A stretch of 64,000 bases of DNA, taken from positions 124,001 through 188,000 of the forward strand of contig NZ_AUHO01000010.1 in NCBI RefSeq assembly GCF_000423225.1, read 5' to 3'. The notes under the pieces were generated by a model. That model was not told the origin of the DNA, did not search any database, and saw nothing but the letters and a program-made list of their open reading frames with translations. Source of the DNA: Kaistia adipata DSM 17808 (lineage in GTDB: Bacteria > Pseudomonadota > Alphaproteobacteria > Rhizobiales > Kaistiaceae). Position numbers and translations under genes: made by a program. Below, in pieces: positions 4,302 through 32,982 of the stretch. How positions within the stretch are numbered: position 1 is the stretch's first letter; each line of letters begins with the position of its first letter.

Positions 4302-4326
4302 ACCGCGGCACCGTTCAGAAAGACAG

Positions 4327-6967: not shown

Positions 6968-8380
6968 ATGCGGCTGGCGGCAATCGATCAGGGTACGACA
7001 TCGACGCGGGTGTTGGTGGCGGACGATGCCGGTGGCCTTGAAATCGCCCAGGCGCTCCGCCACGCCCAGCACTATCCGCGAGCCGGCTGGGTCGAGCACG
7101 ACGCGCGGGAATTGCTCGCCAATGTCGCCGCCTGCATCGAAGCGGCGGGCGCCGTCGACGCCATCGGCATCGACAATCAGGGCGAGAGCTGCCTGGCCTG
7201 GGACGCCGTCACCGGCGAGCCGCTGTCGCCCGTGATCGTCTGGCAGGACAATCGGACCAAGGATGTCATCGAGCGACTGCGGGGCGAGGGCGCCGAGGCG
7301 CTGACCCTGGCGCGCGCCGGGCTGCCGCTCGACCCCTATTTTTCCGCTTCCAAGCTGGCGTGGATCCTCGATGAGCTGCCGGCGGCGCGCGCCGCCCACG
7401 CGGCAGGACGATTGCGCCTCGGCACGACGGACGCCTTCTTCCTTGACCGGCTGACCAAACGCTTCGTCACGGACGCGGCGACCGCCTCGCGCACCTCCCT
7501 GATGAACCTCGAGACGCTCGATTGGGACCCGGAGCTCTGCCGGCTGTTCGGTGTGCCGGTCGAATGCCTGCCGGAGATCGGGCCCTCGGCCGGCGGCGTC
7601 ATCGGCATGGCCGGCCGGATCCCGATCACGGCGTCGATCGTCGACCAGCAGGCGGCGCTCTACGGACATGGCTGCCGCCGGCCGGGCGACGCCAAGATCA
7701 CCTTCGGCACCGGCGCCTTCGCGCTGGCGGTGACCGGCGACCGGATCGTTCGCAATCCGGCGATCGGGCTGCTGCCGACGGTGGCGTGGCGGATCGCGGC
7801 GGAGACGGTCTATGCCGTCGATGGCGGCGTCTACGACGCCGGCTCGGCGATCGAGTGGCTCGGGCGGATCGGCATGCTGAACGGCGTCGACGACCTGCAG
7901 GCCTTTGACGGCGGCCCGGCGATCGAGCGCGACCTCGTCTTCGTGCCGGCCTTGTCCGGCCTCGGCTGTCCGCATTGGGATCGCAGCGCGGCGGGGCTGT
8001 GGCTCGGCATGTCGGCTGACACGACGCGGGCGCAGATGAGCCAGTCGGCGCTCGAAGGCATCGCGCTGGCTTGCGCCGACGTGATGCGGGCGATGGCCGC
8101 GGAGGTGACCATCGGCGATGTGCTGTCGATTGATGGCGGCCTGTCGCGCAGCCCCTATTTCGCGCAGTTCCTGGCCGATGCGCTGGGACGCGATATCCGC
8201 ACGCGCTCCTTCGACGAGCTGACGAGCCTCGGTTGCGCGGCGCTGGCCGGACTGGCGCTGGGCGTCGAACTGCCGGAACGGGCGGGGGGCGACATCGTCT
8301 ATGCGAGCCGCGATCTCGGCCGGGATCGCTGGCGGCAGCGCTTCGACCAGGCCATCGGCCGTTCGCGCAACTGGCGCTGA
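6968..8380 (+). CDS. FGGY-family carbohydrate kinase, glycerol-kinase-like
   Basis: A 470-residue kinase. Residues 7-14 (DQGTTSTR) match the glycerol-kinase ATP-phosphate loop. WQDNRT matches the substrate loop, VDQQAALYGHG carries the catalytic Asp, FGTGAF matches the second phosphate motif and LGCPHWD matches the glycerol kinase signature. It starts on the base after the stop of the GlpB-like gene. With GlpA- and GlpB-like proteins and a DeoR/GlpR-type regulator it forms a glycerol-like catabolic set, although it is shorter than typical GlpK (about 500 residues). The substrate may be glycerol, another polyol or a modified derivative released by the upstream amidase. Confidence 0.85.
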   Translation: MRLAAIDQGTTSTRVLVADDAGGLEIAQALRHAQHYPRAGWVEHDARELLANVAACIEAAGAVDAIGIDNQGESCLAWDAVTGEPLSPVIVWQDNRTKDVIERLRGEGAEALTLARAGLPLDPYFSASKLAWILDELPAARAAHAAGRLRLGTTDAFFLDRLTKRFVTDAATASRTSLMNLETLDWDPELCRLFGVPVECLPEIGPSAGGVIGMAGRIPITASIVDQQAALYGHGCRRPGDAKITFGTGAFALAVTGDRIVRNPAIGLLPTVAWRIAAETVYAVDGGVYDAGSAIEWLGRIGMLNGVDDLQAFDGGPAIERDLVFVPALSGLGCPHWDRSAAGLWLGMSADTTRAQMSQSALEGIALACADVMRAMAAEVTIGDVLSIDGGLSRSPYFAQFLADALGRDIRTRSFDELTSLGCAALAGLALGVELPERAGGDIVYASRDLGRDRWRQRFDQAIGRSRNWR

Positions 8381-17825: not shown

Positions 17826-19349
17826 TCAGCGCGCGGTGGGAACCGCGCGTGCACCGGCGCGCCGGCCCGTGGCCTGCGGGCCGCCCTCATAGGCAATCGC
17901 GCCGCCGACCATGGTCATGCGGACGCCATGGGCGATGCGCGTGCCGTCCTTCCCGGCATTCTCGCCGATGCGATCCCAGTCGAGCAGCGCCAGATCGGCG
18001 CGCAGCCCCGGCGCGATCCTGCCCCGGTCCGACAGCGAGAAAAATGCCGCCGGCGCGCTGGTCATGCGGGAGAGCGCGGTGACCTGGTCGACATGGCCGG
18101 GACGGGCATAGCGCTCGATGAAACCGGCGAAGGCACCATAGCAACGGGGATGGCAGGCGGCGGTATGGCGGTGGCCGAACAGGTAGCCGTCCGAGCCGAC
18201 GAGGCAGAGCGGATGGGTGATGATCCGGTCGATGGTTTCGGGTCGGCTCTCGCGTTCGTAGAGGCAGACCGTTGACGGATCCGCGATGTAGATATCCTGC
18301 GCCACCTCGCCGGCCGGCTGGTTCAGCGAACGGGCGATATCGCCGATGGTGTGTCCGGCTGCATCGGGAAACGTCGAGGCCAGAACCCTGACATCGTCGA
18401 GGCCGCCGATGCAGACCCCGCGCGCCGCCTCCTCGAGCTCGTCGCCAGGCACGCGCGCCCCGACGGCCGGCGTTCGCTGGAACAGGTAGCTGAACAACCA
18501 GGCCAGCGTGGTGAAGCCGGCGGCGTAGGGATAGAGATCGAAGCGTGCGTTCTGGCGCGTCTCGAAGATCGAGAACAGCGGATCGAGCAGATGGTCGTAG
18601 CGATCCGAGATCGGCCGCATATGCGAAACCAGAACCTGGCAGCCGGCGGCGTCGGCCCAGGCGACGACCTCGCCGACGGACTGGAGGATGCCGGCGCCCT
18701 GGTCGGCGATATGGCAGGTGAGCGGGCGGCCGTGCCGGGCCAGAACGCGGCACAGCGGCACCATTTCCGCCGCGCCATAGCCGATGGCCTCGGGATAGTT
18801 GAGGCCGACCGACAGGCCCATGCCGCCTGCGGCGAGGAAATCGTCGAGCAGGCCGCACATGCGGTCGATCTCGGCGGGCGTCGCGGCGCGCGCCTCGCCC
18901 ATGACGTGGCGGCGCAGCGTGTTGTGGCCGAGCAGGTCGCCGATGTCGAGGGCGAGGCCGTGATCGAGGCGAGCGAGGTGATCGGGCAGCGGCACGTTGC
19001 TGTCGCCCGCCTCGGGCATCAGGACGGCATGCACGGTCCCCGTCGGGGTGGCGGAGTAGCCGCAATTGCCGACGACCAGCGTGCCGACGCCCTGTGCCAG
19101 GGCGGACACGCCGTCATTGTCCGGATCGACGCCGTGGTAGTCGCCGTGGTTGTGGGTGTCGATGAAGGCCGGCGAGAGGATGGACCCGCTGCCATCGACC
19201 CTGCGGAAGCCCTGCTCGGCCAGATCCAGTATCTGGCCGACATGGACGATGCGTCCCTCGGCGACCGCAACCGCCGTGCCGTCGGGCAGGAAGCCCTGGC
19301 CGTCGAAAACGCGCGCCCCGGTGATGAGCGTGCCCTGTTCCATCGTCAT
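17826..19349 (-). CDS. N-acyl-D-amino-acid deacylase family amidohydrolase
   Basis: A 507-residue amidohydrolase. It has the metal motif FIDTHNHGDYH near residue 70, the Cys-ligand segment GNCGYS typical of D-aminoacylases, metal-binding His in TCHIADQG and VSHM, and the catalytic Asp in LVGSDGYLF. The class removes acyl groups from N-acyl-D-amino acids or related amides. The ATG at 19349 overlaps the stop of the RidA gene (ATGA). The frame stays open much further upstream, but that part is antisense to the hydantoinase gene and is not coding. It is the last gene of the RraA-SDR-HyuA-HyuB-RidA unit. Confidence 0.88.
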   Translation of the reverse strand: MTMEQGTLITGARVFDGQGFLPDGTAVAVAEGRIVHVGQILDLAEQGFRRVDGSGSILSPAFIDTHNHGDYHGVDPDNDGVSALAQGVGTLVVGNCGYSATPTGTVHAVLMPEAGDSNVPLPDHLARLDHGLALDIGDLLGHNTLRRHVMGEARAATPAEIDRMCGLLDDFLAAGGMGLSVGLNYPEAIGYGAAEMVPLCRVLARHGRPLTCHIADQGAGILQSVGEVVAWADAAGCQVLVSHMRPISDRYDHLLDPLFSIFETRQNARFDLYPYAAGFTTLAWLFSYLFQRTPAVGARVPGDELEEAARGVCIGGLDDVRVLASTFPDAAGHTIGDIARSLNQPAGEVAQDIYIADPSTVCLYERESRPETIDRIITHPLCLVGSDGYLFGHRHTAACHPRCYGAFAGFIERYARPGHVDQVTALSRMTSAPAAFFSLSDRGRIAPGLRADLALLDWDRIGENAGKDGTRIAHGVRMTMVGGAIAYEGGPQATGRRAGARAVPTAR

Positions 19350-19726
19350 CTGTCGTCTCCGAGATAGGCCATCGCATCGATCTCGACGAGGATGCCGTCG
19401 AGGCCGGCTTCTACCGTGGTCCGGGTTGGGTAGGGTTCCGAGAAGGCAGCCCGATAGGCGATGTCGAACTCGGAAAATGCATCGATGTCGTGAAGGTAGC
19501 AGGTGCATTGGACGACTTGATCCATCGATCCACCGGCCGCCTCGACGAGGCGGCGGATGTTGTGGAGCGTGGCGCGCGTCTGGGTGGCGATGTCGCCGTC
19601 TATGACGGAGCCGTCCGGACGCAGCGGCCCCTGACCGGAAACGAGTATCCATGGCCCCGCCCGCAGGGCCGGGGAGTACGAGCCTGTATTGACGGCTGCC
19701 AAGGGATCGGCGATGCGCCGGCGCAT
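19346..19726 (-). CDS. RidA family (YjgF/YER057c/UK114) protein
   Basis: A 126-residue protein with the RidA fold signatures: ILVSGQGPLRPDGSV, QTRATLHNIRRLVEAAGGSMDQVVQCTCYL, and the C-terminal RTTVEAGLDGILVEIDAMA, where an Arg (in YPTRT) lines the active site. RidA proteins hydrolyse reactive enamines/imines. Several subfamilies sit in amino-acid or amide catabolic operons and act as deaminases. Here it lies between HyuB and a D-aminoacylase. Confidence 0.88.
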   Translation of the reverse strand: MRRRIADPLAAVNTGSYSPALRAGPWILVSGQGPLRPDGSVIDGDIATQTRATLHNIRRLVEAAGGSMDQVVQCTCYLHDIDAFSEFDIAYRAAFSEPYPTRTTVEAGLDGILVEIDAMAYLGDDR

Positions 19727-19822: not shown

Positions 19823-21592
19823 TCAGGCGGCGCGCGCCTGGGCGCGAAGCCGCTCCGTCTTCGCTGTGTCGAGCGTCAGGTCGTCGGTGAGCGCGACGCC
19901 ATAGACGGCTTCCGCGCGGGCCCGGCTGATCCAGCCTTCGCGCACGTCGTCCATGACGGATTCCGGCCGCCGCTCGAGCGGCGAGCCGTAGCCGCCGCCA
20001 CCGCAACTGATCGAGACCATCGCCTCGCCGGGCGCGACCAGGACTTCCGCGCATCCCGGCATCGGATCGAGCGTGCCATCCTGCCGTTTGCGGAACTGGG
20101 AGGACGGTCCGCCGGCCAGGCCGCCGCGCACGCCGGATGCCGGATTGAGGTTGCCGTCGCTGACATAGGCGACCGTCATGTCGCATCCGAGCGGCGAGAA
20201 CTCGGAATAGGCGCTGAGCGCGCCGCGGAATCGGCCGGCCCCTTCCGTGTCCGGCATCAGGCGCCGGGCATGGACGAAGATCGGGTGCCGGAGTTCGTCG
20301 ATTTCGATCGAGTCCTGGTAGCACATGCCGGCATTGCCGACATGCATGATCGTCAGCCACCCGTCCGTGGTCGGCGTGCCGGCCCCGCCGGTACAGCCGA
20401 GATAGACCTCGTTGACGAAGGGCTGCCCGTCATGGACGCCCGACACCACGCCCGAAGAGGCCGGGATGCAGGCGCCCGTTTCGGCCATGCCAAGCCCATC
20501 CGCGAGCTCGGCAATGGCACATTGCACGGGGTTCGCGACGCGATCGGCCAGATTGGTCGTGGCAACCGAGCAGGAGGTCGGATGCATCGGGCGCCCGACC
20601 GCGCAATTGTCGCGAAGGTGGACGCGGATGCGGCGAAAGCTGCCCTCGTTCTTCGGAACCGTATGGTCGATGGAGTTGAAGATGCCGATCATCGGGGCGG
20701 AGCGGGCGCAGCCTTCGGACAGGTTGATGCCATTCTCCATGCAGTCGGGATTGTCGCGGACGTCGACATCGATCATCGCGGCGTCCGGATCGACTTCGAC
20801 CGTGACCTTGATCTCGACGCCATCGGCCGGCGTGCCGGGGAAGGGGTCGTGGCGGCTGGAGCGCGTCACGCGGCCCTTCGGCATGGCGCGGATCGTCTCC
20901 GCCATGCGCGCCTCGCTGTAGTCGAACCACTCGCGGACATAGGTTTCGAGCACGTCCCAGCCGACTTCCCGTCCCAGGGCCAGGATCTCGCGCTCGCCCA
21001 CCCGGGCCGACCCGAGCGTGGCGAGATAGTCGCCCCACCATTGTTCCGGCACGCGGATGCGCATCTGGCACATCCGGACGATGTCCATCTCATGCTTGTA
21101 GTTCGACTGGATCCGAACCGCCGGAAAGATCAGCGCGCCCTCGGCATAGACGTCCTTGGCGGCGCCCATATAGGTGGTCGGCAGCGCGTTGCCGCAATCG
21201 GCCTGATGCCCCTTGGCGAGCACGGTGAAACGATGGACGCCGTCATCGTCCAGGACCGGGACGAGGATGCTGTGGTCGGCCGGGTGCGTACAGCCGTGAT
21301 AGGGCGAATTGTGCAGGAAGGCGTCGCCTCGCCGGAGCTCCCTGTGGTTGTCCGTCATCGTTCGGCTCATCACTTCCGGACCGCGCAGGACGTGGATGGG
21401 CAGGCTGTCTGAGGCGGTCAGAAGTTCGTGGCGAGCGGTCAGGATCACGCAGGAGAAGTCGCGCGCGATCGTCAGGATGCCGGAGCGACCTGTCCGATGC
21501 AGCGTGTTGGCCATCTTGCGCGCGATCCCCTCGAACCGCGCCGTCAGGACGGCGAGCTGGACGCCGCTCATGGTCTTGGAACTGGCGTTCAT
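19823..21592 (-). CDS. Hydantoinase B/oxoprolinase subunit (HyuB type)
   Basis: A 589-residue protein of the HyuB/N-methylhydantoinase B family. Landmarks are an RDFSC segment near residue 45, GDAFLHNSPYHGCTHPADHSILVPV near 90-115 with its conserved metal-type His and Asp, HPTSCSVATTNLADRV near 355, and the Gly-rich end motif SCGGGGYGSPLERRPE. HyuB acts with HyuA as an ATP-dependent amidohydrolase on cyclic amides (hydantoins, 5-oxoproline) or in related carboxylase complexes. It follows HyuA by 9 bases. The pair, with RidA and a D-aminoacylase downstream, points to stepwise ring opening and deacylation. Confidence 0.92.
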   Translation of the reverse strand: MNASSKTMSGVQLAVLTARFEGIARKMANTLHRTGRSGILTIARDFSCVILTARHELLTASDSLPIHVLRGPEVMSRTMTDNHRELRRGDAFLHNSPYHGCTHPADHSILVPVLDDDGVHRFTVLAKGHQADCGNALPTTYMGAAKDVYAEGALIFPAVRIQSNYKHEMDIVRMCQMRIRVPEQWWGDYLATLGSARVGEREILALGREVGWDVLETYVREWFDYSEARMAETIRAMPKGRVTRSSRHDPFPGTPADGVEIKVTVEVDPDAAMIDVDVRDNPDCMENGINLSEGCARSAPMIGIFNSIDHTVPKNEGSFRRIRVHLRDNCAVGRPMHPTSCSVATTNLADRVANPVQCAIAELADGLGMAETGACIPASSGVVSGVHDGQPFVNEVYLGCTGGAGTPTTDGWLTIMHVGNAGMCYQDSIEIDELRHPIFVHARRLMPDTEGAGRFRGALSAYSEFSPLGCDMTVAYVSDGNLNPASGVRGGLAGGPSSQFRKRQDGTLDPMPGCAEVLVAPGEAMVSISCGGGGYGSPLERRPESVMDDVREGWISRARAEAVYGVALTDDLTLDTAKTERLRAQARAA

Positions 21593-21601
21593 TCCTGCCT
21601 C

Positions 21602-23752
21602 CTAGGAGCGCACGATGATGATGAGCGTGCCCGTAGCATCCCGCCGAGCGCTGGCGCCCGGATCGACGACGACCGACGTAAAACTGGATTCAACGATCGC
21701 CGGACCTTCGATCTCGAGATCGACGGGCAAGGCCTCGAAGCGGTGGACTTCGGCGTCGACCCATCCCGTCGCGGCGAAATAGACGGGGCGGCTGGCCAGT
21801 GCAGCGCCCGTGTCACCCGCTTCGATCCGGCCCGGCAGGGGCGAGCCGATGCGGCAGCGTATGGTGGCATTCCATCCGATCGTCTCGATCGGGGAACCCG
21901 GATCGCTGATCGCGAAGATTTCCTCATGCGTACGATGAAAGTCCGAGACCAGTTCTTCGACATCCTGGTCGCTGCCGAAGCGGCTCCGGCGAAGCGGCAC
22001 CTCGATTTCCCAGGCCTGGTCCGGATAGCGAGCCTCCGTCGTCCAGTCGATGCCGACGAACTCGGCATCCGGACCCGTCTTCTCCTGAAAGGCGCGGCAG
22101 CGCGCCTCCAGTTCGTCGAGGATCGCGTTGACGCCGTCGATGTCGAAGTCGGCGCTGGTCGCGTGGAACATCGCCTGATGATGCGCAGCGAGGTCGGAGA
22201 TCAGGGCGCCCGAGGCCGCCAGGGCAGCACCGGTTTCCGGAACGAAGACGGTTTCGCAGCCGAGCCGGCGGCCGATCGCGACACAGTTCAGCCCGGCGGC
22301 GCCACCGCCCGCGACGAAGGCTGCTTCGGTCGGGTCGATGCCCTGGTTGACGGTGATGTCGAGGATCGCCTGGACCATGTGCTCGGTGGCGAGTTCGAGG
22401 ATCGCGGCCGCGGCGATCTCGACGGTTTGTCCGAGCGGGTCGGCGACCTCGCGCCGGATGGCTGCTTCGGCGGCGGCGCGGTCGAGCTGCATGCGGCCGC
22501 CCAGAAAATGGGCGGGATCGATATGGCCGAGCGCGATCGCCGCGTCGGTGACGGTCGGGCGCGTGCCGCCACGTCCATAGGCGGCGGGGCCGGGGACGGC
22601 ACCGGCGCTGATCGGTCCGACATGCAGCAGCCCGCCGGCGTCGACCCAGGCGATCGAGCCTCCGCCGGCGCCGATGCTCTTGGTGTCGACGGAGGGCATG
22701 CCGGTCATGTGGCTGGAGAGCGGCTTGCCGAGCCAGGTCTCGCGCGTGCGGGGGATGCGGCCATTGCGGACGAGCGAGACGTCGAAGGTCGTGCCCCCCG
22801 TGTCGCCGACGATCAGCGTGCCGGCGCCGCCACCTGGGTTGTAGGCCTTGGCGCCGACCGGCGCCATGCTGGGCCCGGAGTTGATCAGGTGTACCGGCGC
22901 GCGCGCCACGTCGATCGCGTCCATCACGCCGCCCTGCGACGTGACGACGAGCAGGCGTCCATGAAACCCGGCTTCGCGCAGCCGCCCGTCCAGGCCGTTC
23001 ATGTATCTGCCCATGATCGGTTTCAGCGACGCATCCAGCGCGGTCGACATGGCGCGTCGGTATTCGCGGATCGACGGGTTGATCTGGTGCGACAGCGTGT
23101 AGGGCATCGCCGGCAAATGGCGCTCGATCAGCCGGCCGAAGGCAAGCTCATGCGCGGGGTTGACGATCGACCACAACAGGCACACGGCGATCGACTCCGC
23201 GCCGGATGCCGCGACCTGCTCCAGCAGGGTGACGGCGCGTGCCTCGTCGAGCGGATCGCGAACGGTGCCATCCGCCATGATGCGCTCTTCGAGTTCGAAG
23301 GTCAGTGCCTTGGAGATGAACGGGGCCGGGTAGGGCACCGTGAAGTTGAAGGAGTCCTGGCGTCCGCCCTCGCGGAAGACGAGGGTGTCGGGGTGTCCCT
23401 TGGTCGTGAGAAACGCCGTCTTCGCGGTGCGTCCGGTGATGATCGCGTTGATGGCATGGGTCGTGCCGTGGACGAGGATCTCGCCGCGCTCGAGATACTC
23501 TGAAAGCGGCTGCCCGGCCGCATCCGCGGCAACCCGCATGACATCGATCACGCCCTTGACCGGATCGGACGGGGTGGTGGCGGCCTTGTGCATGCGGAGC
23601 GTGCCGGCGGCATCGGCGACGATCAGGTCCGTGAAGGTGCCGCCGGTATCGACGGCAAAGCGCAGGCGGTCCGATTGACCGCTCCGATGGGACGCGGCCC
23701 TCGCCTTGCCGGATGCCGTGATGGCGGCATCGCGGGAACTGGTCTCGATCAT
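21602..23752 (-). CDS. Hydantoinase/oxoprolinase subunit A (HyuA type)
   Basis: A 716-residue protein of the ASKHA-fold HyuA family. It has the phosphate loop FAVDTGGTFTDLIV near residue 35, HGTTHAINAI, a second nucleotide loop VGDTGGTTFDVSLV near residue 300, and SIGAGGGSIAWVDAGG. The family uses ATP to activate cyclic amides. The ATG at 23752 is preferred because GGAG lies 10 bases before it and the family starts close to the first loop. A GTG at 23803 that overlaps the preceding SDR stop (GTGA) would add 17 residues. Confidence 0.9.
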   Translation of the reverse strand: MIETSSRDAAITASGKARAASHRSGQSDRLRFAVDTGGTFTDLIVADAAGTLRMHKAATTPSDPVKGVIDVMRVAADAAGQPLSEYLERGEILVHGTTHAINAIITGRTAKTAFLTTKGHPDTLVFREGGRQDSFNFTVPYPAPFISKALTFELEERIMADGTVRDPLDEARAVTLLEQVAASGAESIAVCLLWSIVNPAHELAFGRLIERHLPAMPYTLSHQINPSIREYRRAMSTALDASLKPIMGRYMNGLDGRLREAGFHGRLLVVTSQGGVMDAIDVARAPVHLINSGPSMAPVGAKAYNPGGGAGTLIVGDTGGTTFDVSLVRNGRIPRTRETWLGKPLSSHMTGMPSVDTKSIGAGGGSIAWVDAGGLLHVGPISAGAVPGPAAYGRGGTRPTVTDAAIALGHIDPAHFLGGRMQLDRAAAEAAIRREVADPLGQTVEIAAAAILELATEHMVQAILDITVNQGIDPTEAAFVAGGGAAGLNCVAIGRRLGCETVFVPETGAALAASGALISDLAAHHQAMFHATSADFDIDGVNAILDELEARCRAFQEKTGPDAEFVGIDWTTEARYPDQAWEIEVPLRRSRFGSDQDVEELVSDFHRTHEEIFAISDPGSPIETIGWNATIRCRIGSPLPGRIEAGDTGAALASRPVYFAATGWVDAEVHRFEALPVDLEIEGPAIVESSFTSVVVDPGASARRDATGTLIIIVRS

Positions 23753-23799
23753 CGCCTGCGTGCTCCGATGGGGCTGACGGGTGGTTCGGCGGGGAGAAT

Positions 23800-24585
23800 T
23801 CACATGGAGAGGACATGGCCTCCGTCGACGACGAGCACGGAGCCGGTCACGAAGCGGGAAGCGCGGGAGGCCAGGTAGAGGATCGCGCCGTCCAGATCGT
23901 CGACCTGGCCGACGCGTCCGAGCGGAATGCGATCGGTGATGGCGCGGCTGGCCTCGCTCGCGAAGAAGGCGCTGTTCATGCCGGTGACGACATAGCCCGG
24001 GGCCAGGGTATTCACACGGATGCCGGACGCGGCGTATTCGAGCGCCATGACGCCGGATAGCTGGGCGACGCCTGCCTTGGCGACGGCGTAGGCCGCATCG
24101 CCGCGCGCCGGCTTGAGGCCGAGGATCGACGATACGTTGATGATGGAGCCGCCGCGTTCTCGCATCCGACTTGCGCCCTCCTGCGCCATGACGAAGAGCG
24201 CGTCGAGATCGACGGCGAGGATTGCGCGCCAGCGGTAGAAGTCCAGGTCCGCCGTGCCGCCCGGGCCGGCGATGCCGGCATTGTTGATGAGTACGGAGAC
24301 GGGGCCGAGCGCCGCCTCGGCCGCATCGAAGACTGGCGGGACCGCCTCCCTGTCGAGCAGGTCGAATGGCAGGACGACGGCTGTACCGCCGATCGCACGG
24401 ATGCTATCCGCCGTCTTCTCGAGCTCTGCCTCTCGCCGCCCTGCCAGGGCGACCCGGGCTCCGTTCGCCGCCAGAACCGTCGCAAACCGGCGCCCCAGCC
24501 CGCTCGAGGCGCCCGAAACGAAGGCGACCTCTCCCGAGAGGTCGAAGATCGAGGCGGCGAGGGGGCTGGCGGCTCGGTCAGACAT
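23800..24585 (-). CDS. Short-chain dehydrogenase/reductase (SDR) 3
   Basis: A 261-residue SDR: GASSGLG (residues 25-31), DLLD near 75-78, NNAG (101-104), catalytic Ser152, Tyr166 and Lys170, and the end motif FVTGSVLVVDGGHVLSM. AGRRE after beta-2 favours NADP. It lies between the RraA-family gene and HyuA in the same direction, so it is a redox member of the amide-cleaving unit. Confidence 0.9.
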   Translation of the reverse strand: MSDRAASPLAASIFDLSGEVAFVSGASSGLGRRFATVLAANGARVALAGRREAELEKTADSIRAIGGTAVVLPFDLLDREAVPPVFDAAEAALGPVSVLINNAGIAGPGGTADLDFYRWRAILAVDLDALFVMAQEGASRMRERGGSIINVSSILGLKPARGDAAYAVAKAGVAQLSGVMALEYAASGIRVNTLAPGYVVTGMNSAFFASEASRAITDRIPLGRVGQVDDLDGAILYLASRASRFVTGSVLVVDGGHVLSM

Positions 24586-24648: not shown

Positions 24649-25311
24649 TCAAAGGACGCCGTATTTTTCGTAGACTTCAATCAGGAGGCGTCCGGCCCGC
24701 AGTTCGTCGCGCGTGTGCGTCTCTCGCGCGGCCTTGTCGAGCGCGCGCCTGAAGACCTCGTCGGCGATGGCTTGCGGGATGACGACGACCCCGTCGACAT
24801 CGCCAAAGATCGTGTCGCCCGCCGAGATCATGACGCCGCCGCATTCGATCGTGCGGTCCATCTCGATCATGCGGCAGCGCCCCTTGCTGTCGAGGGGACC
24901 GATGCCGCCATGGAACACGGGGAACTTCAGCGCCCGAATGTGACGCACGTCGCGCACAAGACCATCCGTGACGCATGCGACGGCGCCGCGCGCCATGGCC
25001 GCCGTCGTCAGCAGCTCGCCCCATGGCGCCATGCGGTGCGTGGGGCCGCCGCAGGCGAAGACCGGAACGTCGCCGGGTTTCAGGTCATCGATCAGGCGGA
25101 TTTCCAGTTCGTACGGGTTTTCACCCTCGAGCACCGAGTAGGCATTCGAATAGAGGCCGGTGCGGGCGCGGCCGACGAAGGATGTCGTCTCGTCGAGCGG
25201 TCGCATGAAGGGTCGACAGGCCTGGTTTGGATAGCCCATCTCGTCCATGACGTCGGAAAGCACGGCGGTATAGAGCGTACGCAGAAGCTCTGCAGATGCG
25301 ACCACAATCAT
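24649..25311 (-). CDS. RraA-like family protein (aldolase/decarboxylase type)
   Basis: A 220-residue protein of the RraA/HMG aldolase fold. It contains LSDVMDEMGY near residue 20, a GPTHRMAPWGELLTTAAMARGAVACVTDGLVRD stretch near 90-120 holding the family G-x-L and R-D motifs, and a metal-binding D-G-V-V-V-I-P segment near 175. Members are 4-hydroxy-4-methyl-2-oxoglutarate or oxaloacetate-type aldolases/decarboxylases, or RNase E regulators. Catabolic context favours the former. As first gene of its unit it would release pyruvate-like end products. A LacI-type operator candidate sits 17 bases before the start codon. Confidence 0.85.
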   Translation of the reverse strand: MIVVASAELLRTLYTAVLSDVMDEMGYPNQACRPFMRPLDETTSFVGRARTGLYSNAYSVLEGENPYELEIRLIDDLKPGDVPVFACGGPTHRMAPWGELLTTAAMARGAVACVTDGLVRDVRHIRALKFPVFHGGIGPLDSKGRCRMIEMDRTIECGGVMISAGDTIFGDVDGVVVIPQAIADEVFRRALDKAARETHTRDELRAGRLLIEVYEKYGVL

Positions 25312-25327
25312 CCTCCCGTGGCATTTT

Positions 25328-25341
25328 ATAAAACGTTACAG
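25328..25341. promoter_or_regulatory. LacI-type operator candidate (site A)
   Basis: ATAAAACGTTACAG lies 17 bases upstream of the RraA start. Its core AAACGTTACAGT (25331-25342) is repeated exactly, inverted, at 25501-25512 before the divergent transporter unit. Confidence 0.62.
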
Positions 25342-25434
25342 TTGACGTTGCTGCCGAGTCAAGTCGGTCCAGCGAGGGCAAGTTGTTGTCGATTGGGGTG
25401 CCGAATTATCGATATTGCTGCAATTTGATTGTCT

Positions 25435-25448
25435 TTGACTGTAGTCAA
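25435..25448. promoter_or_regulatory. Perfect palindrome TTGACT-GT-AGTCAA
   Basis: A 6-bp inverted repeat with a 2-base spacer between the two LacI-type sites in the divergent region. The half-site TGACTGTA recurs at 25499-25506, where it overlaps LacI-type site B. It could be a second operator or a -35 region. No regulator is assigned. Confidence 0.4.
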
Positions 25449-25501
25449 TGACTGTTGCGTCAGGGTGGCTTGACAAGGGAATTCATCCTCGTTTGTATTG
25501 A

Positions 25502-25515
25502 CTGTAACGTTTAAG
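25502..25515. promoter_or_regulatory. LacI-type operator candidate (site B)
   Basis: CTGTAACGTTTAAG, the reverse complement of CTTAAACGTTACAG. It lies just before the polyamine-type transporter unit and inverted relative to site A. Of the three sites this is the most symmetric (10 of 14 positions match its own reverse complement). Confidence 0.62.
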
Positions 25516-25589
25516 AGGCGTCTTCGGTTGCCGCTGCAATGACACGCTCGATGCGGCGCAGCCTGAAGGTCAGGGCAGGTGGGCCGCTG

Positions 25590-26711
25590 ATGCAGCAGTT
25601 ACCGGAAGCAAAGGCTGACCCGCACTCCGAGCCGATCCTCGAGCTTGCCAATATTCGTCACAGCTATGCCGGCAACCCGGCCCTTCGCGGGATCTCGCTG
25701 GATGTCGCCAGGGGTGAGTTCCTGACGCTGCTGGGCCCGAGCGGCTCCGGCAAGTCGACGCTTCTGCGCGTCATCGCCGGGCTGGAGGAGCCGGACTCCG
25801 TCGGTCAGATGCGGCTTGACGGTCACGACATCAGGAAACTGCCCGCCAACCTGCGCAACGTCTCGACGGTGTTCCAGCATTTCGCGCTGTTTCCGCACAT
25901 GACCGTCGGCCAAAATGTCGAATACAGCTTGAGATTGCGGAAAGTGCCGCAGGACTTGCGACGCCAGCGCGCCGAAGAGGCTCTGGCGCTGGTGCGGCTG
26001 GAGGGGAAATACGAACGGCGCATTCATCAGCTCAGCGGCGGCGAACGCCAGCGCGTGGCGCTGGCCCGATCGCTCGTCATGGGGCCAGACGTGTTGCTGC
26101 TGGACGAGCCCTTGGGAGCGCTCGACGAGCGGCTTCGCCTCGACATGCAGCTCGAACTGATCGAGCTCCGGCGCAAGACGGGCGGCACCTTCATTCTCGT
26201 CACTCATAGCCAGGAAGAGGCGATCACCATGAGCGATCGCATCGTCCTGATGCGGTCGGGCGCGATCGAGCAGGTCGGCACGCCACGGGATCTGTTTGGC
26301 AGTCCGGAGACGGAGTTCGCCGCCCGTTTCATGGGGGTCGAGAATGTCCTGCGCGGCACGCTTGCCGCGATGTCGGGCCGCCGGGCCGAAGTGCGGGTCG
26401 GCGATCAGATCATCGTCGGCCGCGCGGTCGGCGACGTTGCCCGCATGGGCCCGGGTGATGCCGTCTTCGTGGCGATCCGGGCCGAGCATGTCCATGTCGG
26501 CGCCGGCGGGGGCGCGGCCAACACCCTCCGCGGAACCGATGGCGCGCCGATCTACAAGGGGCGCTTCAGCGATGTGACCTATCGGAGCGCCGTCGGCAGC
26601 CTCGTCGCCCGCCTGGGCGATGCGGATCAGCGGGCGCCCAAGCACGCGGATCTCAGTTTCTCGCCCGAGCACTGCATTGTCGGCGTGGTCGATCGGGGAA
26701 AACTAGCCTGA
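25590..26711 (+). CDS. Polyamine/spermidine-type ABC transporter ATP-binding protein (PotA type)
   Basis: A 373-residue ATPase with Walker A GPSGSGKST (residues 49-57), Q-loop VFQHFALFPHMTV, signature LSGGERQRV, Walker B VLLLDEPLGALDE and switch His in LVTHSQEEA. A C-terminal TOBE-like regulatory domain follows (about 250-373). The start is uncertain: ATG at 25590 (AGG ten bases upstream) or ATG at 25539, giving 390 residues, which lies closer to the operator. Downstream come a binding protein, two permeases and a dimethylformamidase-like gene, all in one direction. Confidence 0.9.
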   Translation: MQQLPEAKADPHSEPILELANIRHSYAGNPALRGISLDVARGEFLTLLGPSGSGKSTLLRVIAGLEEPDSVGQMRLDGHDIRKLPANLRNVSTVFQHFALFPHMTVGQNVEYSLRLRKVPQDLRRQRAEEALALVRLEGKYERRIHQLSGGERQRVALARSLVMGPDVLLLDEPLGALDERLRLDMQLELIELRRKTGGTFILVTHSQEEAITMSDRIVLMRSGAIEQVGTPRDLFGSPETEFAARFMGVENVLRGTLAAMSGRRAEVRVGDQIIVGRAVGDVARMGPGDAVFVAIRAEHVHVGAGGGAANTLRGTDGAPIYKGRFSDVTYRSAVGSLVARLGDADQRAPKHADLSFSPEHCIVGVVDRGKLA

Positions 26712-26757: not shown

Positions 26758-27951
26758 ATGGCCATGAAGAATGCGAACCACTGTACTCCGAGCCGTCGCA
26801 CGGTCCTGAAGGGACTCGTCGCCGGTACCGGCGCGCTCGCCGCGCCCACGCTCGCGCTTGGCGGCATGGGGCGGGCGCAGGCCGCCACGCCGGGGACGAT
26901 CCGGATGATGGGCGGGCCGACGGTCGCCCTTCAGGACTGGAGCCTGTTCGAGAAGGAAACCGGGCTCAAGATGGAGTTCACGCCCTTCAACGTTGACGAC
27001 GTGGGTGCTCTCTACAACGAGATCCTGGTCAATGGCGCAGGCGAGCGCTTCGACCTGATCAACACGCTGGCCGGCGTGCAGAAGCCGCTGGTGAAGCAGG
27101 AGCAGGTCGCCCAGCTCGATACGAGCAAGCTCAAGAACTACGCCGGCATTCCGGAAACCGTGAAGCGCAGTCCGGTGCTCTATGCCGGCGACGGCAAGGA
27201 CTGGAGTGTGCCGCTCTATTACAACGCCGACAGCTTCGGCTATTTCCCCGAGAAGCTCGGTCTGCCGCGTCCGCCGGAAAAGCTGACCTGGGATCTTCTA
27301 CTCAACAGCGAGCAGACGCTCGGCAAGACCGCGATCGACGGCGACATGATCGCCCTGATGATCGGTGGCATGTACCTGAAGAACCGCGGCCTCGCCGAGA
27401 TCGCCGACCCGGCCAACATGACAGCAAGCGAGTGCCAGACGGCGACGAACTTCCTGATCGAGCGCAAGAAGGCGGGCCAGTTCCGCTCACTCTGGAAGAC
27501 CTATGACGAGCAGGTCGCGAATTTCGTCAATGGCGAGGTCGTGGTCCAGCGCTGCTGGGAGCCTGCCGTCAAGGAGGTCCGCGCCAAGGGGCTCGACGTC
27601 GAATATGCGACCTGCAGCGACTTCCACATCAACTGGATGCATTCGACCTTCATGCCGGTCCAGGCGGTCGAGCGCGAGAACGTCGAAGAGATCTATCGCG
27701 CGCTGGACTGGTTCATCGGCGGTTCCTATGCGGCCGAACTGGCGATCCTGCGCGGCTACACCGGATCGCGCATGGATCTCGGGCTTGAATTCGCCAAGGC
27801 GCAGAACTGGGCGCCGGAGAAGATCGCCCAGGTGCAGGCCAATATCGTGAAGGTAGAAACGAAATTCTCCAACCCGAACTACTGGATCGGCGGCGCGCCG
27901 GACGACCTCGCGGCGCATGATTCCGAAATGGCGCGCTTCCGCAACGCCTGA
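26758..27951 (+). CDS. Polyamine/iron-type ABC substrate-binding protein (PotD type), Tat-exported
   Basis: A 397-residue protein with a twin-Arg signal (SRRTVLKGL, Arg13-Arg14), a hydrophobic core and a GRAQAATPG cleavage region near residue 40. The mature part has the bilobed SBP family 1/8 fold (GTIRMMGGPTVALQDWSLFEKETGLKMEF, WSVPLYYNADSFGYFPEKL). An AGGGGA ribosome site precedes the ATG. Export by Tat suggests it folds in the cytoplasm first. The ligand is probably cationic or amide-like, but this is inferred from the operon only. Confidence 0.88.
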   Translation: MAMKNANHCTPSRRTVLKGLVAGTGALAAPTLALGGMGRAQAATPGTIRMMGGPTVALQDWSLFEKETGLKMEFTPFNVDDVGALYNEILVNGAGERFDLINTLAGVQKPLVKQEQVAQLDTSKLKNYAGIPETVKRSPVLYAGDGKDWSVPLYYNADSFGYFPEKLGLPRPPEKLTWDLLLNSEQTLGKTAIDGDMIALMIGGMYLKNRGLAEIADPANMTASECQTATNFLIERKKAGQFRSLWKTYDEQVANFVNGEVVVQRCWEPAVKEVRAKGLDVEYATCSDFHINWMHSTFMPVQAVERENVEEIYRALDWFIGGSYAAELAILRGYTGSRMDLGLEFAKAQNWAPEKIAQVQANIVKVETKFSNPNYWIGGAPDDLAAHDSEMARFRNA

Positions 27952-28007: not shown

Positions 28008-28937
28008 ATGAGCCTGGTATCGGCGACGAGCGATCGCGGCGGCGTGGCGCCGCCAGCGACGCGCACCATACGCTTTTCTCTGGAAGGCGCGGCGATCCGG
28101 CTCGTGACCGGGCTTTGGGCGATCGGGGTGCTGCTGCCCATCCTGTCGCTGCTGGTCATTGCCTTTCTGAGGGGGCGGGGCATCGGGTTCATCTGGACCC
28201 CATCGCTTCAGGCCTATTCGGATATCCTTGTCGGTTTCCGCATCGAGATCATCCTCCGGACGCTCCGCATCGTGGCGCTGGTCACGCTGATCGAGTTCGT
28301 GCTGGCCTTTCCCTTCGCGCTCTGGCTCGCCAAGGGCTTGCGGGCGGGCTGGACGAAATCCATCATCCTGGTCCTGCTCGTGGTGCCGTTCTTCCTCAGT
28401 CCGGCCGCGCGAACCATCGTCTGGCGATCGATCCTCGGGCGGGAGGGCCTCGTCAACTCCGTCCTGATGTCGTCGGGCCTCGTGGATACGCCGCTCGACT
28501 GGCTTCTGTTTTCTCAGTTCGCCATTCATCTCGGCCTCATCGGCCCCTATTTCCCCTCGATGGTCTGGCCGCTCTTTATCTCGATCTCGCTGATCGACGA
28601 CGAACTGATCAAGGCCAGCCGGGATCTCGGGGGAAGCGCATGGCAGACGCTCTGGCTTGTCGTCGTTCCGCTGGCGGCGCCGGGCATCGCAGCGGGGATC
28701 CTGTTCACGGCGATCCCGATGCTGGGCGACAATGTCGTGTCGGCGCTGCTCGGGGGAGGCCGGGTCGCCCTGCTTGCGGAGAGCTTCGACGATCTGATCC
28801 GCGCCATGAACTTCGCCGGCGCGGCGGCACTCGCGAGCCTGCTCGTTCTGATCATCCTGGCGCTTGGCGCCGCCGTGCTCGCCCTCCTTCGCCGCAACGG
28901 GATCAATGGCGATGTGTTCCGGGGGATGCAGGCGTGA
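28008..28937 (+). CDS. Polyamine-type ABC transporter permease (PotB type)
   Basis: A 309-residue inner-membrane protein with about six to seven hydrophobic segments and the EAA loop near the C-terminal third (SRDLGGSAWQTLWLVVVPLAAPGI). The ATG at 28008 has GGAG seven bases upstream; the frame upstream (to 27957) crosses the hairpin and is not coding. The stop overlaps the next gene (GTGA). Confidence 0.88.
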   Translation: MSLVSATSDRGGVAPPATRTIRFSLEGAAIRLVTGLWAIGVLLPILSLLVIAFLRGRGIGFIWTPSLQAYSDILVGFRIEIILRTLRIVALVTLIEFVLAFPFALWLAKGLRAGWTKSIILVLLVVPFFLSPAARTIVWRSILGREGLVNSVLMSSGLVDTPLDWLLFSQFAIHLGLIGPYFPSMVWPLFISISLIDDELIKASRDLGGSAWQTLWLVVVPLAAPGIAAGILFTAIPMLGDNVVSALLGGGRVALLAESFDDLIRAMNFAGAAALASLLVLIILALGAAVLALLRRNGINGDVFRGMQA

Positions 28938-29740
28938 GACACAATCCGGCCGGGCTGTTTACGCGCAAAACCGTCGCCGTCTCGATCGTGTTCGGCGCGA
29001 TTGCCATGGCATTGCTCTACATTCCGATCGTCGGCCTGGCGCTGCTCTCGTTCAGCACCCAGCCGCTTTCGGGCATTCCCTGGCCTCTGACGCTCGAATG
29101 GTATGCCTCGCTCTTCGAGGGCAACAACGCCAAGTGGATCGGCCCGCTCGGCACCAGCGTTGCGATCGGCCTGATCGTGTCCACCGCCGCGACGTCCGTC
29201 GCCCTTCTGATCGGCAGGGCGTTGCCCGTCATCGAGCGGCGTGGCGGAATCCTCGCCGCATATCTCTCGGTCCTCGTCATGCCGGGGATCCTGGTCGGGA
29301 TCGCGGTGCTGATCTTCTATCGCGGCCTGCTGGGAATCCGGACCGGCTTCTGGTCGGTTGTGCTCGTCCATTTCATCTGGGCGCTTCCCTTCGCGCTGCT
29401 GTGCATCCTGCTCGTCGCGGTCCGGTTCGACCGCCGTCTCCTTGAGGCCGCAAAGGATCTCGGCGCGAGCCGTTACCGTCAGTTTGTCGATGTCGAACTG
29501 CCGCTGATGCTGCCCGGCATCTCGGCATCTGCGTTTTTCAGCTTCCTGCTCTCGTTCAATGAGTTGCCGCGCACGCTCTATGCGCGCGGCGGCGTCACCA
29601 CGCTGCCCTACTATATCTGGACCGCATCTTCGGCCCACAGTTCGCAAGTCTCGCTGATCTATGCCCTGAGCGCAGTCATCATGCTGGCCAGCTTCCTGGT
29701 GACGTTGCTCGCCATGCGCCTGCTGATGCGCGCCGAATGA
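28934..29740 (+). CDS. Polyamine-type ABC transporter permease (PotC type)
   Basis: A 268-residue inner-membrane protein with an EAA loop (AKDLGASRYRQFVDVELPLMLPGI). The GTG at 28934 overlaps the previous stop (GTGA), which fixes the start by coupling; the protein begins MRHNPAGLFTRK before the first membrane segment. The stop overlaps the amidase-like gene (ATGA), so transporter and enzyme are translated together. Confidence 0.87.
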   Translation: MRHNPAGLFTRKTVAVSIVFGAIAMALLYIPIVGLALLSFSTQPLSGIPWPLTLEWYASLFEGNNAKWIGPLGTSVAIGLIVSTAATSVALLIGRALPVIERRGGILAAYLSVLVMPGILVGIAVLIFYRGLLGIRTGFWSVVLVHFIWALPFALLCILLVAVRFDRRLLEAAKDLGASRYRQFVDVELPLMLPGISASAFFSFLLSFNELPRTLYARGGVTTLPYYIWTASSAHSSQVSLIYALSAVIMLASFLVTLLAMRLLMRAE

Positions 29741-31932
29741 CGGAAACCCCGATGGAACTCACTGGCTATAGCAATCGCTGGACCGTGCGCCCCGGCGAGG
29801 AGATCACGTTTCACATCCATTGCCGATCCACCCGCTATGAGGCGCAACTCGTTCGGCTCATTCACGGTGACGAGAATCCGAAAGGGCCGGGGTTCAAGGA
29901 GCAGCCCATTCGCTCCGATCTCGATGGGGGCCATGCCGGCAGGGAGCAAGTGATCCGCAAGGGCTCCTACGGTGTCGTCGATCTCGCAGGGCTGCTCGAC
30001 GGGGTCGAGAGCTTCACCCTGTCGTTCTGGGTTTGCCCGACCCTTCCGGGTCCGGAGGATCAGGGGATGCTGGCTCTCCACGCACCGTCTGTCGGGGCTG
30101 GGCTCGGCCTGTATCTGATGCCGGATGGCTTCGTGGAGTGCCGGCACGGCGATGCGCCGGCGTTGCGCAGTGGCCAGCGCTTGACCGTCGGCGAGTGGTA
30201 CCAGCTTCGGCTTTCAGTCGAGGTGGCGGCCAGACGGCTCTCCCTTGAAATCGCGTCGCGTCGATGGCAGCCGTCGCACGCGGAGCCGGATCGAGTGGCG
30301 GCGCCGCTTTCGTCCCGATTCCGGCCAGGAAATGCTTCGTTGCTGTTTGCTGCCGGCTGGGTCGAAACGACGGAGCATGGTCCCACCCCGCATGGCGTCT
30401 TCAATGGCAAGCTGGCGCGCCCCTGCATCGTCGGCCCAGCGCCTGCAGGGAAAGAGGCGCCCGTCTTGGCGGCATGGGACTTCTCAGTCGCTGCGGGAAC
30501 GGCCTCCATCGTCGATGTCAGCGGTGGGGGACGACATGGCAGGACCGAGAACCGGCCGGCGCGCACCATGACCGGCCCCGGCTGGCCCGGCAGGGCGGAC
30601 TCGACGGCTCCGACGCCGGAAACTCATGACGCCATTCACTTTCATGACGACGATGTCGCCGATGTCGGCTGGCCGGAGTCCCATCGCTTTCGCGTGCCGG
30701 ATGATCTCGCTTCCGGTGTTTACGCCCTGCGGCTGAGGACGGGCGGGGCGGAGGACCATCTGCCGTTCTTCGTCGCGCCTTCGCGCTCGGGGCTGCAGGC
30801 GAAGCTGGCCGTGCTGATGCCGACGATGAGCTATCTCGCCTATGCCAACGAGTCGCTCGACGTGTCCGACACCGTGCAACTGGCGCCTCGCCAGGACATG
30901 GCGATTTCGCCTGAAGCCTATGCCTATGTCGCCGCCAACGGCCTGAAGAGCACCTATGACCTGCACCGGGATGGCAGCGGCATTCAGTACGGGTCGCGCC
31001 GCCGGCCGGTGATGGATTTTCGCCCCAAGGCGCGCTGCAGGACCTTTGATGCGCCGCATCAGTTCGCCGCCGACCTGCATCTGATCGACTGGCTCACGGT
31101 CAAGGGATACGACTTCGATATCCTTACGGATGATCTGCTGCATGAGGAGGGGGCGGCCCTTCTGGCACCCTATCGGGCCGTCGTCACGGGGTCGCATCCG
31201 GAATATTGGACGGCCCGAATGCTGGACGGACGCGACAGCTGGCTCGATGGCGGCGGCCGCCTCGCCTATCTCGGCGGCAACGGGTTCTACTGGGTCACGG
31301 GCGTCGCCGAGGATGCTCCCGACGTGATTGAAATCCGACGCTATGGCGGCACGCGGACGTCGACCGGAGCGATCGGCGAGGAAACCCTCAGCGTCACCCA
31401 CGAGCGCGGTGGCCTGTGGCGGGACCGCGGACGTTCGCCGCATTCCCGCGTCGGTATCGGTTTTTCCGGGCAGGGCTTCGATCGCGGCGCGCCGTTCCGG
31501 CGCTCGCCGCGAAGCTTCGATCCGGCATGGTCGTGGATCTTCAAGGGAGTGGAGCAGGAAATCGTCGGCGCGGGACCCGCCCTGGTTCTGGGGCACGGTG
31601 CCGCCGGTTTCGAGGTCGATCGGACCGATCCCAGGCACGGCACGCCGGCGCACACCGTTGTCCTCGCCTCAACGGATCGTTTCACCGACGCCTATCAGGG
31701 AGCGATCGAGGACTTCAATTCGCTCAACCCGTGGTCGGGTGGCTCGCACAAGGCGTCGGGCATTCGAGCCGATATCGCCTATACGCCCGGGCCGAGGGGG
31801 GGCGCCGTCTTCGCTGCTGGTTCGATCAGCTGGAGTTCGACGCTGTCGCAGTCTGGCTATGACAGCGATACATCCCGTATCACCCAGAATGTGTTGGACG
31901 CTTTCCTCAGGGAAATGCTGCCAACGTCGTGA
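29737..31932 (+). CDS. Second N,N-dimethylformamidase-like large subunit
   Basis: A 731-residue paralogue of the 2040-4301 protein, with the same order: N-terminal beta domain, LamG-like region (about 75-270) and catalytic half. The presumed iron-site segments are kept: YLAYANE (Tyr366/Tyr369), TYDLHRDGSG (Tyr407) and SHPEYW (His487, Glu489). IHFHDDDVADVGW near 300 also matches the first copy. No small-subunit gene lies next to it; the 5' neighbour is a permease overlapping by 4 bases, and the next gene is a convergent LacI gene. It may work alone, borrow the small subunit from the first locus, or act on a larger amide delivered by the transporter. Confidence 0.85.
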   Translation: MTETPMELTGYSNRWTVRPGEEITFHIHCRSTRYEAQLVRLIHGDENPKGPGFKEQPIRSDLDGGHAGREQVIRKGSYGVVDLAGLLDGVESFTLSFWVCPTLPGPEDQGMLALHAPSVGAGLGLYLMPDGFVECRHGDAPALRSGQRLTVGEWYQLRLSVEVAARRLSLEIASRRWQPSHAEPDRVAAPLSSRFRPGNASLLFAAGWVETTEHGPTPHGVFNGKLARPCIVGPAPAGKEAPVLAAWDFSVAAGTASIVDVSGGGRHGRTENRPARTMTGPGWPGRADSTAPTPETHDAIHFHDDDVADVGWPESHRFRVPDDLASGVYALRLRTGGAEDHLPFFVAPSRSGLQAKLAVLMPTMSYLAYANESLDVSDTVQLAPRQDMAISPEAYAYVAANGLKSTYDLHRDGSGIQYGSRRRPVMDFRPKARCRTFDAPHQFAADLHLIDWLTVKGYDFDILTDDLLHEEGAALLAPYRAVVTGSHPEYWTARMLDGRDSWLDGGGRLAYLGGNGFYWVTGVAEDAPDVIEIRRYGGTRTSTGAIGEETLSVTHERGGLWRDRGRSPHSRVGIGFSGQGFDRGAPFRRSPRSFDPAWSWIFKGVEQEIVGAGPALVLGHGAAGFEVDRTDPRHGTPAHTVVLASTDRFTDAYQGAIEDFNSLNPWSGGSHKASGIRADIAYTPGPRGGAVFAAGSISWSSTLSQSGYDSDTSRITQNVLDAFLREMLPTS

Positions 31933-31950: not shown

Positions 31951-32982
31951 CTAGTCGGAGTCGCCCGGCTGGAGCTCGACGTCGAGCACCAGCTGGCGCT
32001 CGTCGAACTGCCCGCGCGCGAGACGCTTCAGCAGGAGCGCCGCGCCTTGCTTGCCCATCTCATAGGCCGGTGACGTGACGGTTGTCAGTCGTGGGCGGAC
32101 ATATTGCGTGAACTCGAAGCCGTTGAAGCCGGTCACCCGGACATCGGCAGGGACCGACAGGTGGCGGTCGAGTGCCCAGGTCAACGCGGCGATGCCCATC
32201 TGATCGTTGCCGCCCATGAAAACGTCCGGCAGGCCCTCGCGGTCGACATAGCGGCTGATCGCGGTCTGCGTGTCGGCGACACTCTCGCTGCCGCAGACCA
32301 CCGTCTCGAATCGCACGTCGGGGCCCGAGGCTTGCACGACGTGGTCGATGCCGAGTTGTCGCTCTGTCACGGCCGGCCAGTGCTGCGAAGGAACCAGCAG
32401 AACCAGGTGCCGTGCGCCCCGCTGGATCACCCGCTCGGCGATGCGTTCGCCGGCCAGCCGGTCGTTCTGGCGGACGGAGAGCGCATCGGGAAGGAAGCTC
32501 GGGCGGTCATCCTGGAAGATCAGGATGGGCTGCTCCGTCTCCTTCAGTCGCCGGTACAGTCGCCGTCGTTCTGTCGCCGAACCGGACGGGATGACGCAAA
32601 GGGCGTCGGTCTGGTCCCGTCGCAGCAGGTGCGCATCATCGATCGTGGCGTGATGAATGCCACACAGCAGCAGCGCAAAGCCGTTGACACTCAGATAGTT
32701 GGAAAAGCCCGCCAGTATGTTGGTGTTCATCGGGTCGGCGAGGAAGCGGGGGGAATCATCGACGATGATCAGCCCGATCGAACGCCTTTGCGACAGGCGG
32801 AGACTGCGCGCGCCCTCATTCGGACGATAGTTGAGATCGCGCATGATCGTTTCGACGCGTTCGCGCGTTGCGGCGGACATCAACTCGAGCCGGCCATTCG
32901 CGACATTGGATGCGGTTGTGACCGAGACGTTGGCTGCCGTCGCAATTTGCGACAGCGTCGTTCGCGCGCGCTTCGCTACCAT
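31951..32982 (-). CDS. LacI-family transcriptional regulator
   Basis: A 343-residue protein with the LacI helix-turn-helix and hinge at the N terminus (TLSQIATAANVSVTTASNVANGR, residues 9-31; ALRL-type hinge around 50-65 read as GARSLRL). A periplasmic-binding-like ligand domain follows (about 70-343). The ligand domain contains MGGNDQMGIAAL and VRVTGFNGFEFTQYVRPRLTTV, as in sugar-responsive members. It is convergent with the transporter/amidase unit. Three CG-centred operator candidates before the cyclase, RraA and PotA-type units are probably its targets. Confidence 0.9.
   Translation of the reverse strand: MVAKRARTTLSQIATAANVSVTTASNVANGRLELMSAATRERVETIMRDLNYRPNEGARSLRLSQRRSIGLIIVDDSPRFLADPMNTNILAGFSNYLSVNGFALLLCGIHHATIDDAHLLRRDQTDALCVIPSGSATERRRLYRRLKETEQPILIFQDDRPSFLPDALSVRQNDRLAGERIAERVIQRGARHLVLLVPSQHWPAVTERQLGIDHVVQASGPDVRFETVVCGSESVADTQTAISRYVDREGLPDVFMGGNDQMGIAALTWALDRHLSVPADVRVTGFNGFEFTQYVRPRLTTVTSPAYEMGKQGAALLLKRLARGQFDERQLVLDVELQPGDSD

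Follow-up and report, generated by a model that had tools for sequence, protein, structure and literature searches.

The dimethylformamidase (DMFase) of Paracoccus, which hydrolyzes a very stable amide, is a 2-Tyr-1-Glu iron amidase of α2β2 organization; in the available part of its published description (PMC7686228), the large subunit is inactive alone, and the small subunit has an undescribed fold of unknown origin. Another DMFA2_C-type enzyme, the N-acetyl-(R)-β-phenylalanine acylase of Protein Data Bank (PDB) entries 8huy, 8i59 and 8i5a, has, judging from these entries and from alignments, no small-subunit chain and the same active-site residues. Here we analyze a 64,000-nucleotide window of the Kaistia adipata DSM 17808 genome (contig NZ_AUHO01000010.1, positions 124,001–188,000), in which an open reading frame (ORF) at 29737..31932 on the + strand encodes a stand-alone DMFase-like large subunit. 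Its sequence and surroundings place this amidase in a distinct stand-alone lineage, apparently with its own catabolic cluster, within a family of known stand-alone and two-subunit enzymes. We consider it probable that the protein is a mononuclear ferric amidohydrolase with the DMFase fold that is self-sufficient and acts on an imported substrate, in a pathway shared with HyuA/HyuB, RidA, short-chain dehydrogenase/reductase (SDR) and RraA-like proteins and under LacI-type control.

Active site and absence of a neighboring small subunit

The 731-residue translation has DMFA2_C (PF20254) as its sole Pfam match (E = 1.4e-83; 281.8 bits against a cut-off of 27). Residues 7–726 align with the Paracoccus large subunit DmfA2 (PDB 6lvb; E = 9e-119, 37.0% identity over 709 aligned positions), a full-length alignment in which the Tyr/Tyr/Glu iron ligands and the essential His are shared; the same stretch also aligns with the 8huy acylase (E = 1e-107, 34.6% identity). 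In DMFase, Y399, Y440 and E521 are the iron ligands, H519 is essential, N547 lies in the site and F693, from a neighboring chain, forms a constriction, as far as the available part of PMC7686228 describes them; the corresponding window residues are Y369, Y407, E489, H487, N515 and S662. The first five are identical in all seven rows of the clade described below and in all 21 rows of the acylase group examined, and among 69 small-subunit-bearing rows Y399 and H519 recur in 68 each, Y440 and E521 in 69 each and N547 in 53 (Asp in the other 16). An earlier note on this DNA had listed Tyr366 together with Tyr369, Tyr407, Glu489 and His487 as candidate iron-site residues; the latter four hold up, but Tyr366 aligns with DMFase Y396, which is not named as a ligand in that part of the description. 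By what is known of the family, the window protein should be a ferric amidohydrolase with a 2-Tyr-1-Glu iron site. It departs from DMFase at the F693 position, in a gappy loop where the alignment is unsure: it is Ser or Gln in the window clade and Thr in most acylase-group rows (16 of 21), while 52 of the 69 small-subunit-bearing rows carry Phe, Tyr or Val, suggesting for the clade a pocket of greater width or polarity.

Whereas the Paracoccus large subunit works within an α2β2 enzyme, the window copy has no small subunit of its own. An iterated small-subunit hidden Markov model (HMM), built from the ORFs of the window and of the collected loci, found none near 29737–31932 in the 64-kb window; its single match there was ORF 1527–1931 (also given as 1587–1934), the partner of the window's other large subunit. 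With the near-identical locus L073 left out, the HMM still found the Paracoccus small-subunit fragment (E = 1.8e-18, 66.5 bits), and with each of 12 clusters omitted in turn it recovered 71 of 71 members at E ≤ 1e-3, a test that covers only members the same HMM had already found. With these controls passed, the claim that no small-subunit gene lies nearby is upheld. The small-subunit profile also detected no chain of 8huy, 8i59 or 8i5a at E ≤ 1 but did find 6lvb_B, to which one of its own rows is near-identical.

Two side observations concern the small subunit itself. Its profile weakly matches ribosomal protein S15 (E 0.004–0.6, several chains), a possible link, and five loci (L067, L079, L088, L089 and L015) have two HMM matches each; in L067, for example, two neighboring ORFs lie upstream of one large subunit.

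Stand-alone lineages and the search beyond the window

Our family comparison drew on a sample of large-subunit matches rather than on every match: duplicate removal left 114 pieces, and dropping the eight under 650 residues gave 106 locus rows. A small-subunit gene lies within 1 kb in 68 of these, is missing from 34 (including L145, L146 and L153, which have only 577–756 bases upstream) and cannot be scored in four with too short an upstream flank; a neighboring small subunit is thus missing in 34 of the 102 loci with a readable flank. Adding two PDB chains, labeled by hand, gives 69 small-subunit-bearing, 35 stand-alone and four short-flank rows.

Orthologs with 60–66% identity to the window protein occur in Chelativorans sp. 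Marseille-P2723 (L006), Bauldia litoralis (L007, in genome G001), two Bauldia metagenome-assembled genomes (MAGs; L008 in G003 and L009 in G002) and two Afifellaceae MAGs (L010 in G250 and L016 in G096). Together with the window copy, these six species form a clade with a Shimodaira–Hasegawa approximate likelihood ratio (SH-aLRT) support of 100 in a 108-row tree, and six of its seven rows group at 100/100 in a 47-row tree. No small subunit adjoins any of the six members with a readable upstream flank; the remaining one, L010, has 94 bases upstream only. The comparison proposed in the earlier note, a phylogeny of large subunits with and without small-subunit partners, therefore places this copy in a fully supported stand-alone clade of seven species. 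The clade also stands apart from DMFase proper in lacking an adjacent small-subunit gene and in its position, since 6lvb belongs to a group of eight small-subunit-bearing rows (100/99 in the 47-row tree) and the window protein lies outside it.

The 47-row tree adds four more stand-alone rows to the window group (97/93) and places 8huy in a second stand-alone group (100/100). The stand-alone label must change twice on this tree and four times on the 108-row tree, where the stand-alone-labeled L153 and L102 lie among small-subunit-bearing rows. Two independent origins of stand-alone enzymes are suggested rather than shown, because forcing a single stand-alone clade on the 47-row set is not rejected by the approximately unbiased (AU) test (p = 0.175 with 23 rows and 0.083 with 19). 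At 18 alignment columns, one residue is present in at least 65% of small-subunit-bearing rows and in fewer than 20% of 28 stand-alone rows (for example, Trp473 gives way to Arg or His and Ser616 to Gly), although at eight of them DMFase itself is gapped or lacks the majority residue, and ancestry alone can yield such columns.

These trees bear on the best-surviving alternative, that the window protein is another N-acyl-amino-acid acylase of the 8huy type, which we regard as rather unlikely but worth keeping in view. The two stand-alone groups have much in common: Gly at the position of DMFase residue 616 in 27 of 28 rows (versus Ser in 80% of small-subunit-bearing rows), mostly a small polar residue at the Phe693 position and a common origin that the AU test does not reject; nevertheless, they are separate in both trees, each with high support (97/93 and 100/100 in the 47-row tree). 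Similarly, 8huy is a stand-alone homolog at E = 1e-107, but the window protein is no closer to it (34.6%) than to DMFase (37.0%). Moreover, the HyuA/HyuB genes that accompany the window clade were not seen in 11 stand-alone control loci, a comparison outside which 8huy's own neighborhood lies. Stand-alone members as such are not a new kind of enzyme, given the 8huy precedent and their share of the sampled loci. Of the possible new functional branch proposed earlier, the distinct clade remains, whereas the stand-alone type is both known (8huy, 8i59 and 8i5a) and common (34 of 102).

Two further observations fall within this sample. L185, a sister stand-alone copy at 42% identity, lies among importer, phosphotriesterase-family, RidA, CobW, Rieske oxygenase and DAO-GcvT genes. 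In L138, L139, L141, L142, L144 and L149, DMFA2_C domains lie in stop-to-stop frames of about 1770–2300 residues.

The whole genome of the window strain encodes three large and two small subunits, each small subunit adjoining one of the other two large-subunit genes. The copy studied here, previously called a second large subunit, is indeed the window's second, although the genome has three, and a small subunit belonging to it, sought genome-wide, did not emerge: only the two were found, both beside other large subunits. We extended this search, with a 31-sequence small-subunit alignment, to eight genome entries, of which G096 and G757 represent the same place, leaving seven genomes. A small subunit is encoded in five of the seven (G000, G001, G002, G096 and G250), in each case detected as the neighbor of another large subunit. 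G003 (Bauldia MAG) and G756 (Chelativorans) carry the ortholog and no small subunit at E ≤ 1, and each also carries a second, more distant DMFA2_C protein. Because of these two genomes, we conclude that the clade keeps its active site where a small subunit is undetectable.

The same genomes argue against a small subunit borrowed in trans, for example the 1587–1934 protein or one encoded on contig C3. The raw material for borrowing is at hand, as there are two small subunits in the window genome and at least one in five of the seven distinct clade genomes, but each of the two in the window genome adjoins its own large subunit, and in G003 (a 90% complete MAG) and G756 the ortholog occurs with no detectable small subunit, which makes sharing in trans improbable. 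Small-subunit-bearing and stand-alone rows also differ at the 18 columns described above, though shared ancestry alone would suffice for that. Of the two options in the earlier note, a stand-alone or a shared-subunit amidase, the first is therefore favored, with a distinct clade and six of six readable flanks free of a small subunit, and the second is not.

Neighboring genes of the amidase

The most constant partner of the clade is an ATP-dependent lactam/hydantoin hydrolase pair, HyuA/HyuB, often with RidA, rather than a transporter. In the window, these genes form a divergent operon on the − strand that begins with an RraA-like protein (24649..25311; also in L008 and L009) and continues with an SDR dehydrogenase (23800..24585; also in L006 and L008), HyuA (hydantoinase A/5-oxoprolinase; 21602..23803), HyuB (hydantoinase B; 19823..21592) and a RidA-family protein (Ribonuc_L-PSP, with clear Pfam matches; 19346..19726). 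HyuA and HyuB occur together in all six clade loci with flanks of about 9 kb, a limit that cuts HyuB in the window (L006 ends inside HyuB), versus none of 20 control loci (tblastn, E 1e-6), which were other family members picked by hand, 11 stand-alone and nine with a small subunit. In the seventh species (G250, L010), HyuA/HyuB, the LacI regulator and the importer ATPase, binding protein and permease lie on another contig, with the permease near the contig end. Window HyuB is 82–85% identical to HyuB of the other clade loci, exceeding the identity of the amidases, and in L008 HyuB lies directly upstream of the amidase. The partner genes resemble CapAB/HyuAB (ATP-dependent caprolactamase/hydantoinase), with CapA (E = 2e-157) and CapB (E = 2e-74) as best NCBIfam models; because both matches fall below the curated cut-offs, we do not assign HyuA/HyuB as a caprolactamase.

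The small proteins of the cluster raise the question of a substitute partner. RidA is similar in size to the small subunit and is encoded within the cluster in the window and immediately downstream of the amidase gene in L007, L008, L010 and L016, but it belongs to a known enzyme family, and the 20-kb loci L006 and L009 show none (L006 ends inside HyuB, and a RidA gene beyond its edge is possible). That RidA, or some other small cluster protein, took over the small-subunit role is accordingly very doubtful.

On the other side of the shared promoter region, the amidase belongs to a + strand operon that also encodes an ATP-binding cassette (ABC) importer: a PotA-like ATPase (25539..26711), a periplasmic binding protein (SBP_bac_8, remotely PotD/PotF-like; 26758..27951) and two permeases, the first at 28008..28937, its start read from the sequence, and the second, PotC-like, at 28934..29740, its GTG start overlapping the stop of the first. 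The ATPase has orthologs in L006, L007 and L016, where the binding protein is 79–82% identical and the importer gene order is that of the window. The curated Pot equivalog cut-offs of NCBIfam are not reached (PotA 335 of 482 bits, PotC 98 of 326, PotD 24 of 582), and we therefore call the importer polyamine-type only. In L008 and L009, two of the six long-flank loci, it is not beside the amidase, and L008 has another importer further upstream whose ATPase is 41% identical. Because of these two loci, the transporter link is not constant, and the importer is ruled out as the defining partner. The link to a polyamine-type importer proposed in the earlier note thus describes the window, L006, L007 and L016 but not the clade as a whole.

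The ATGA overlap between the ORF start and the stop of the second permease, read earlier as a 4-base translational coupling, is present in the letters. The orthologs start at the residue equivalent to Met6 (29752 in the window), probably the conserved start, which in L006, L007 and L016 lies 9–17 nucleotides after the permease stop; the overlap is therefore probably an artefact of start-codon choice, and it is ruled out as a conserved coupling signal. What survives is close spacing within one operon. Elsewhere in the window, a separate DMFase-type locus at 476–8380 comprises genes for a DeoR-type regulator, a small and a large subunit, and FAD oxidoreductase-like and sugar-kinase-like proteins, names that, except for the large subunit, were read from translations rather than from a family search.

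The amidase gene is rare and patchy in the genus, family, order, class and plasmid samples. Orthologs were found in none of 13 other genomes of the genus, so that the gene is not core, in three of 14 other genomes of the family and, at ≥60% identity, in five of 397 genomes of the order, the window's own included. Elsewhere in a 385-genome class sample, identity did not rise above 45% at an E limit of 1e-140, and 75 of 72,556 plasmid records matched at E ≤ 1e-30, all below 60% identity; a Paracoccus aminophilus JCM 7686 plasmid is among the 15 plasmid matches listed. A decaying or inactive copy might be absent from its congeners in just this way, but an open frame, catalytic residues intact in all seven species and a conserved cluster leave this explanation with hardly any likelihood.

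Regulation, proposed pathway and implications

The two operons diverge from a 227-bp promoter region (25312..25538) that contains an inverted TGTAACGTT pair, the natural reading of which is a LacI-type operator. This 9-mer has two copies in the 64 kb, in opposite orientation (25332–25340 on the − strand and 25503–25511 on the + strand), where 0.02 are expected; the motif was chosen after it had been sighted in L006 and once in the window, and only the second copy was unplanned. A slightly longer form has four copies in the 4.84-Mb genome, two of them in this promoter region, and in the L006, L007 and L016 promoter regions a TTGACA is followed by the related T[GT]TAACG. A LacI-family regulator is encoded at 31951..32982 on the − strand, convergent with the amidase gene. 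Promoter and terminator scans gave nothing clearly above chance, and the window contains no match to the palindrome AAACGTTT.

We propose that the operon's polyamine-type importer would deliver a substrate on which the amidase acts inside the cell, needing no small subunit. With Tyr369, Tyr407 and Glu489 as its ligands and His487 and Asn515 alongside, iron would activate the substrate carbonyl and water, cleaving the amide, a chemistry transferred from Paracoccus DMFase. HyuA/HyuB would spend ATP to open a cyclic amide, either in that compound or in the product formed from it; RidA may remove an imine or enamine by-product; and the SDR and RraA-like enzymes could act on the carbon skeleton. 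Both operons are probably under a LacI-type repressor that uses the paired sites in their shared promoter region. Function without a small subunit is suggested by the genomic comparisons, with 8huy as a structurally solved precedent.

Several points weigh against this proposal. Because the Paracoccus large subunit is inactive alone, homology by itself is no promise of activity. The HMM, whose leave-cluster-out test has the restricted coverage given above, could miss a small subunit that resembles none of those found, and the absence from G003 and G756 is weakened by completeness, which is 90% for the G003 MAG and not given for G756. An AlphaFold model from 12 sequences is of low quality in the catalytic domain, where pLDDT averages 64.7. 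Finally, among the 397 genomes of the order, HyuB at ≥77% identity occurs in 14, nine of which have no amidase ortholog, and the amidase and HyuB therefore need not share one compound.

The amidase-less HyuA/HyuB loci (L234–L242; HyuB identity 77–82%) offer a lead on the ring substrate. Seven of the nine share two gene clusters, which in L235, the one locus annotated, correspond to an IclR regulator and a binding protein of sugar type; three carry an arabinonate-dehydratase-like gene and two a GguC/AraD1 gene. A sugar-type importer and, from the annotation of L237, a creatininase-family gene are common to the remaining two. It is possible that this HyuA/HyuB subfamily comprises sugar-acid lactam hydrolases, and these neighborhoods hint, as a lead only, that the ring substrate is sugar-acid-like. 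For the window cluster, the gene content would suggest an imported amide that also bears a lactam-like ring, possibly sugar-acid-like. More tentatively, and with less than even likelihood, the locus could encode an unrecognized pathway under LacI control in which a small-subunit-free iron amidase and HyuA/HyuB together dismantle one imported compound that has an amide both in an open chain and in a ring; an N-acyl lactam resembling a sugar acid would be a plausible candidate. In the open-license PubMed Central (PMC) literature, we found no description of this clade or of its link to HyuA/HyuB, nor any paper on the 8huy acylase.

A native lineage that seemingly lacks the small subunit, keeps an intact active site and differs from small-subunit-bearing relatives at up to 18 columns would provide a direct route to the features that replace the small subunit. 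In turn, the constant HyuA/HyuB neighborhood gives an orphan amidase a candidate pathway and thereby a way to look for the substrate.

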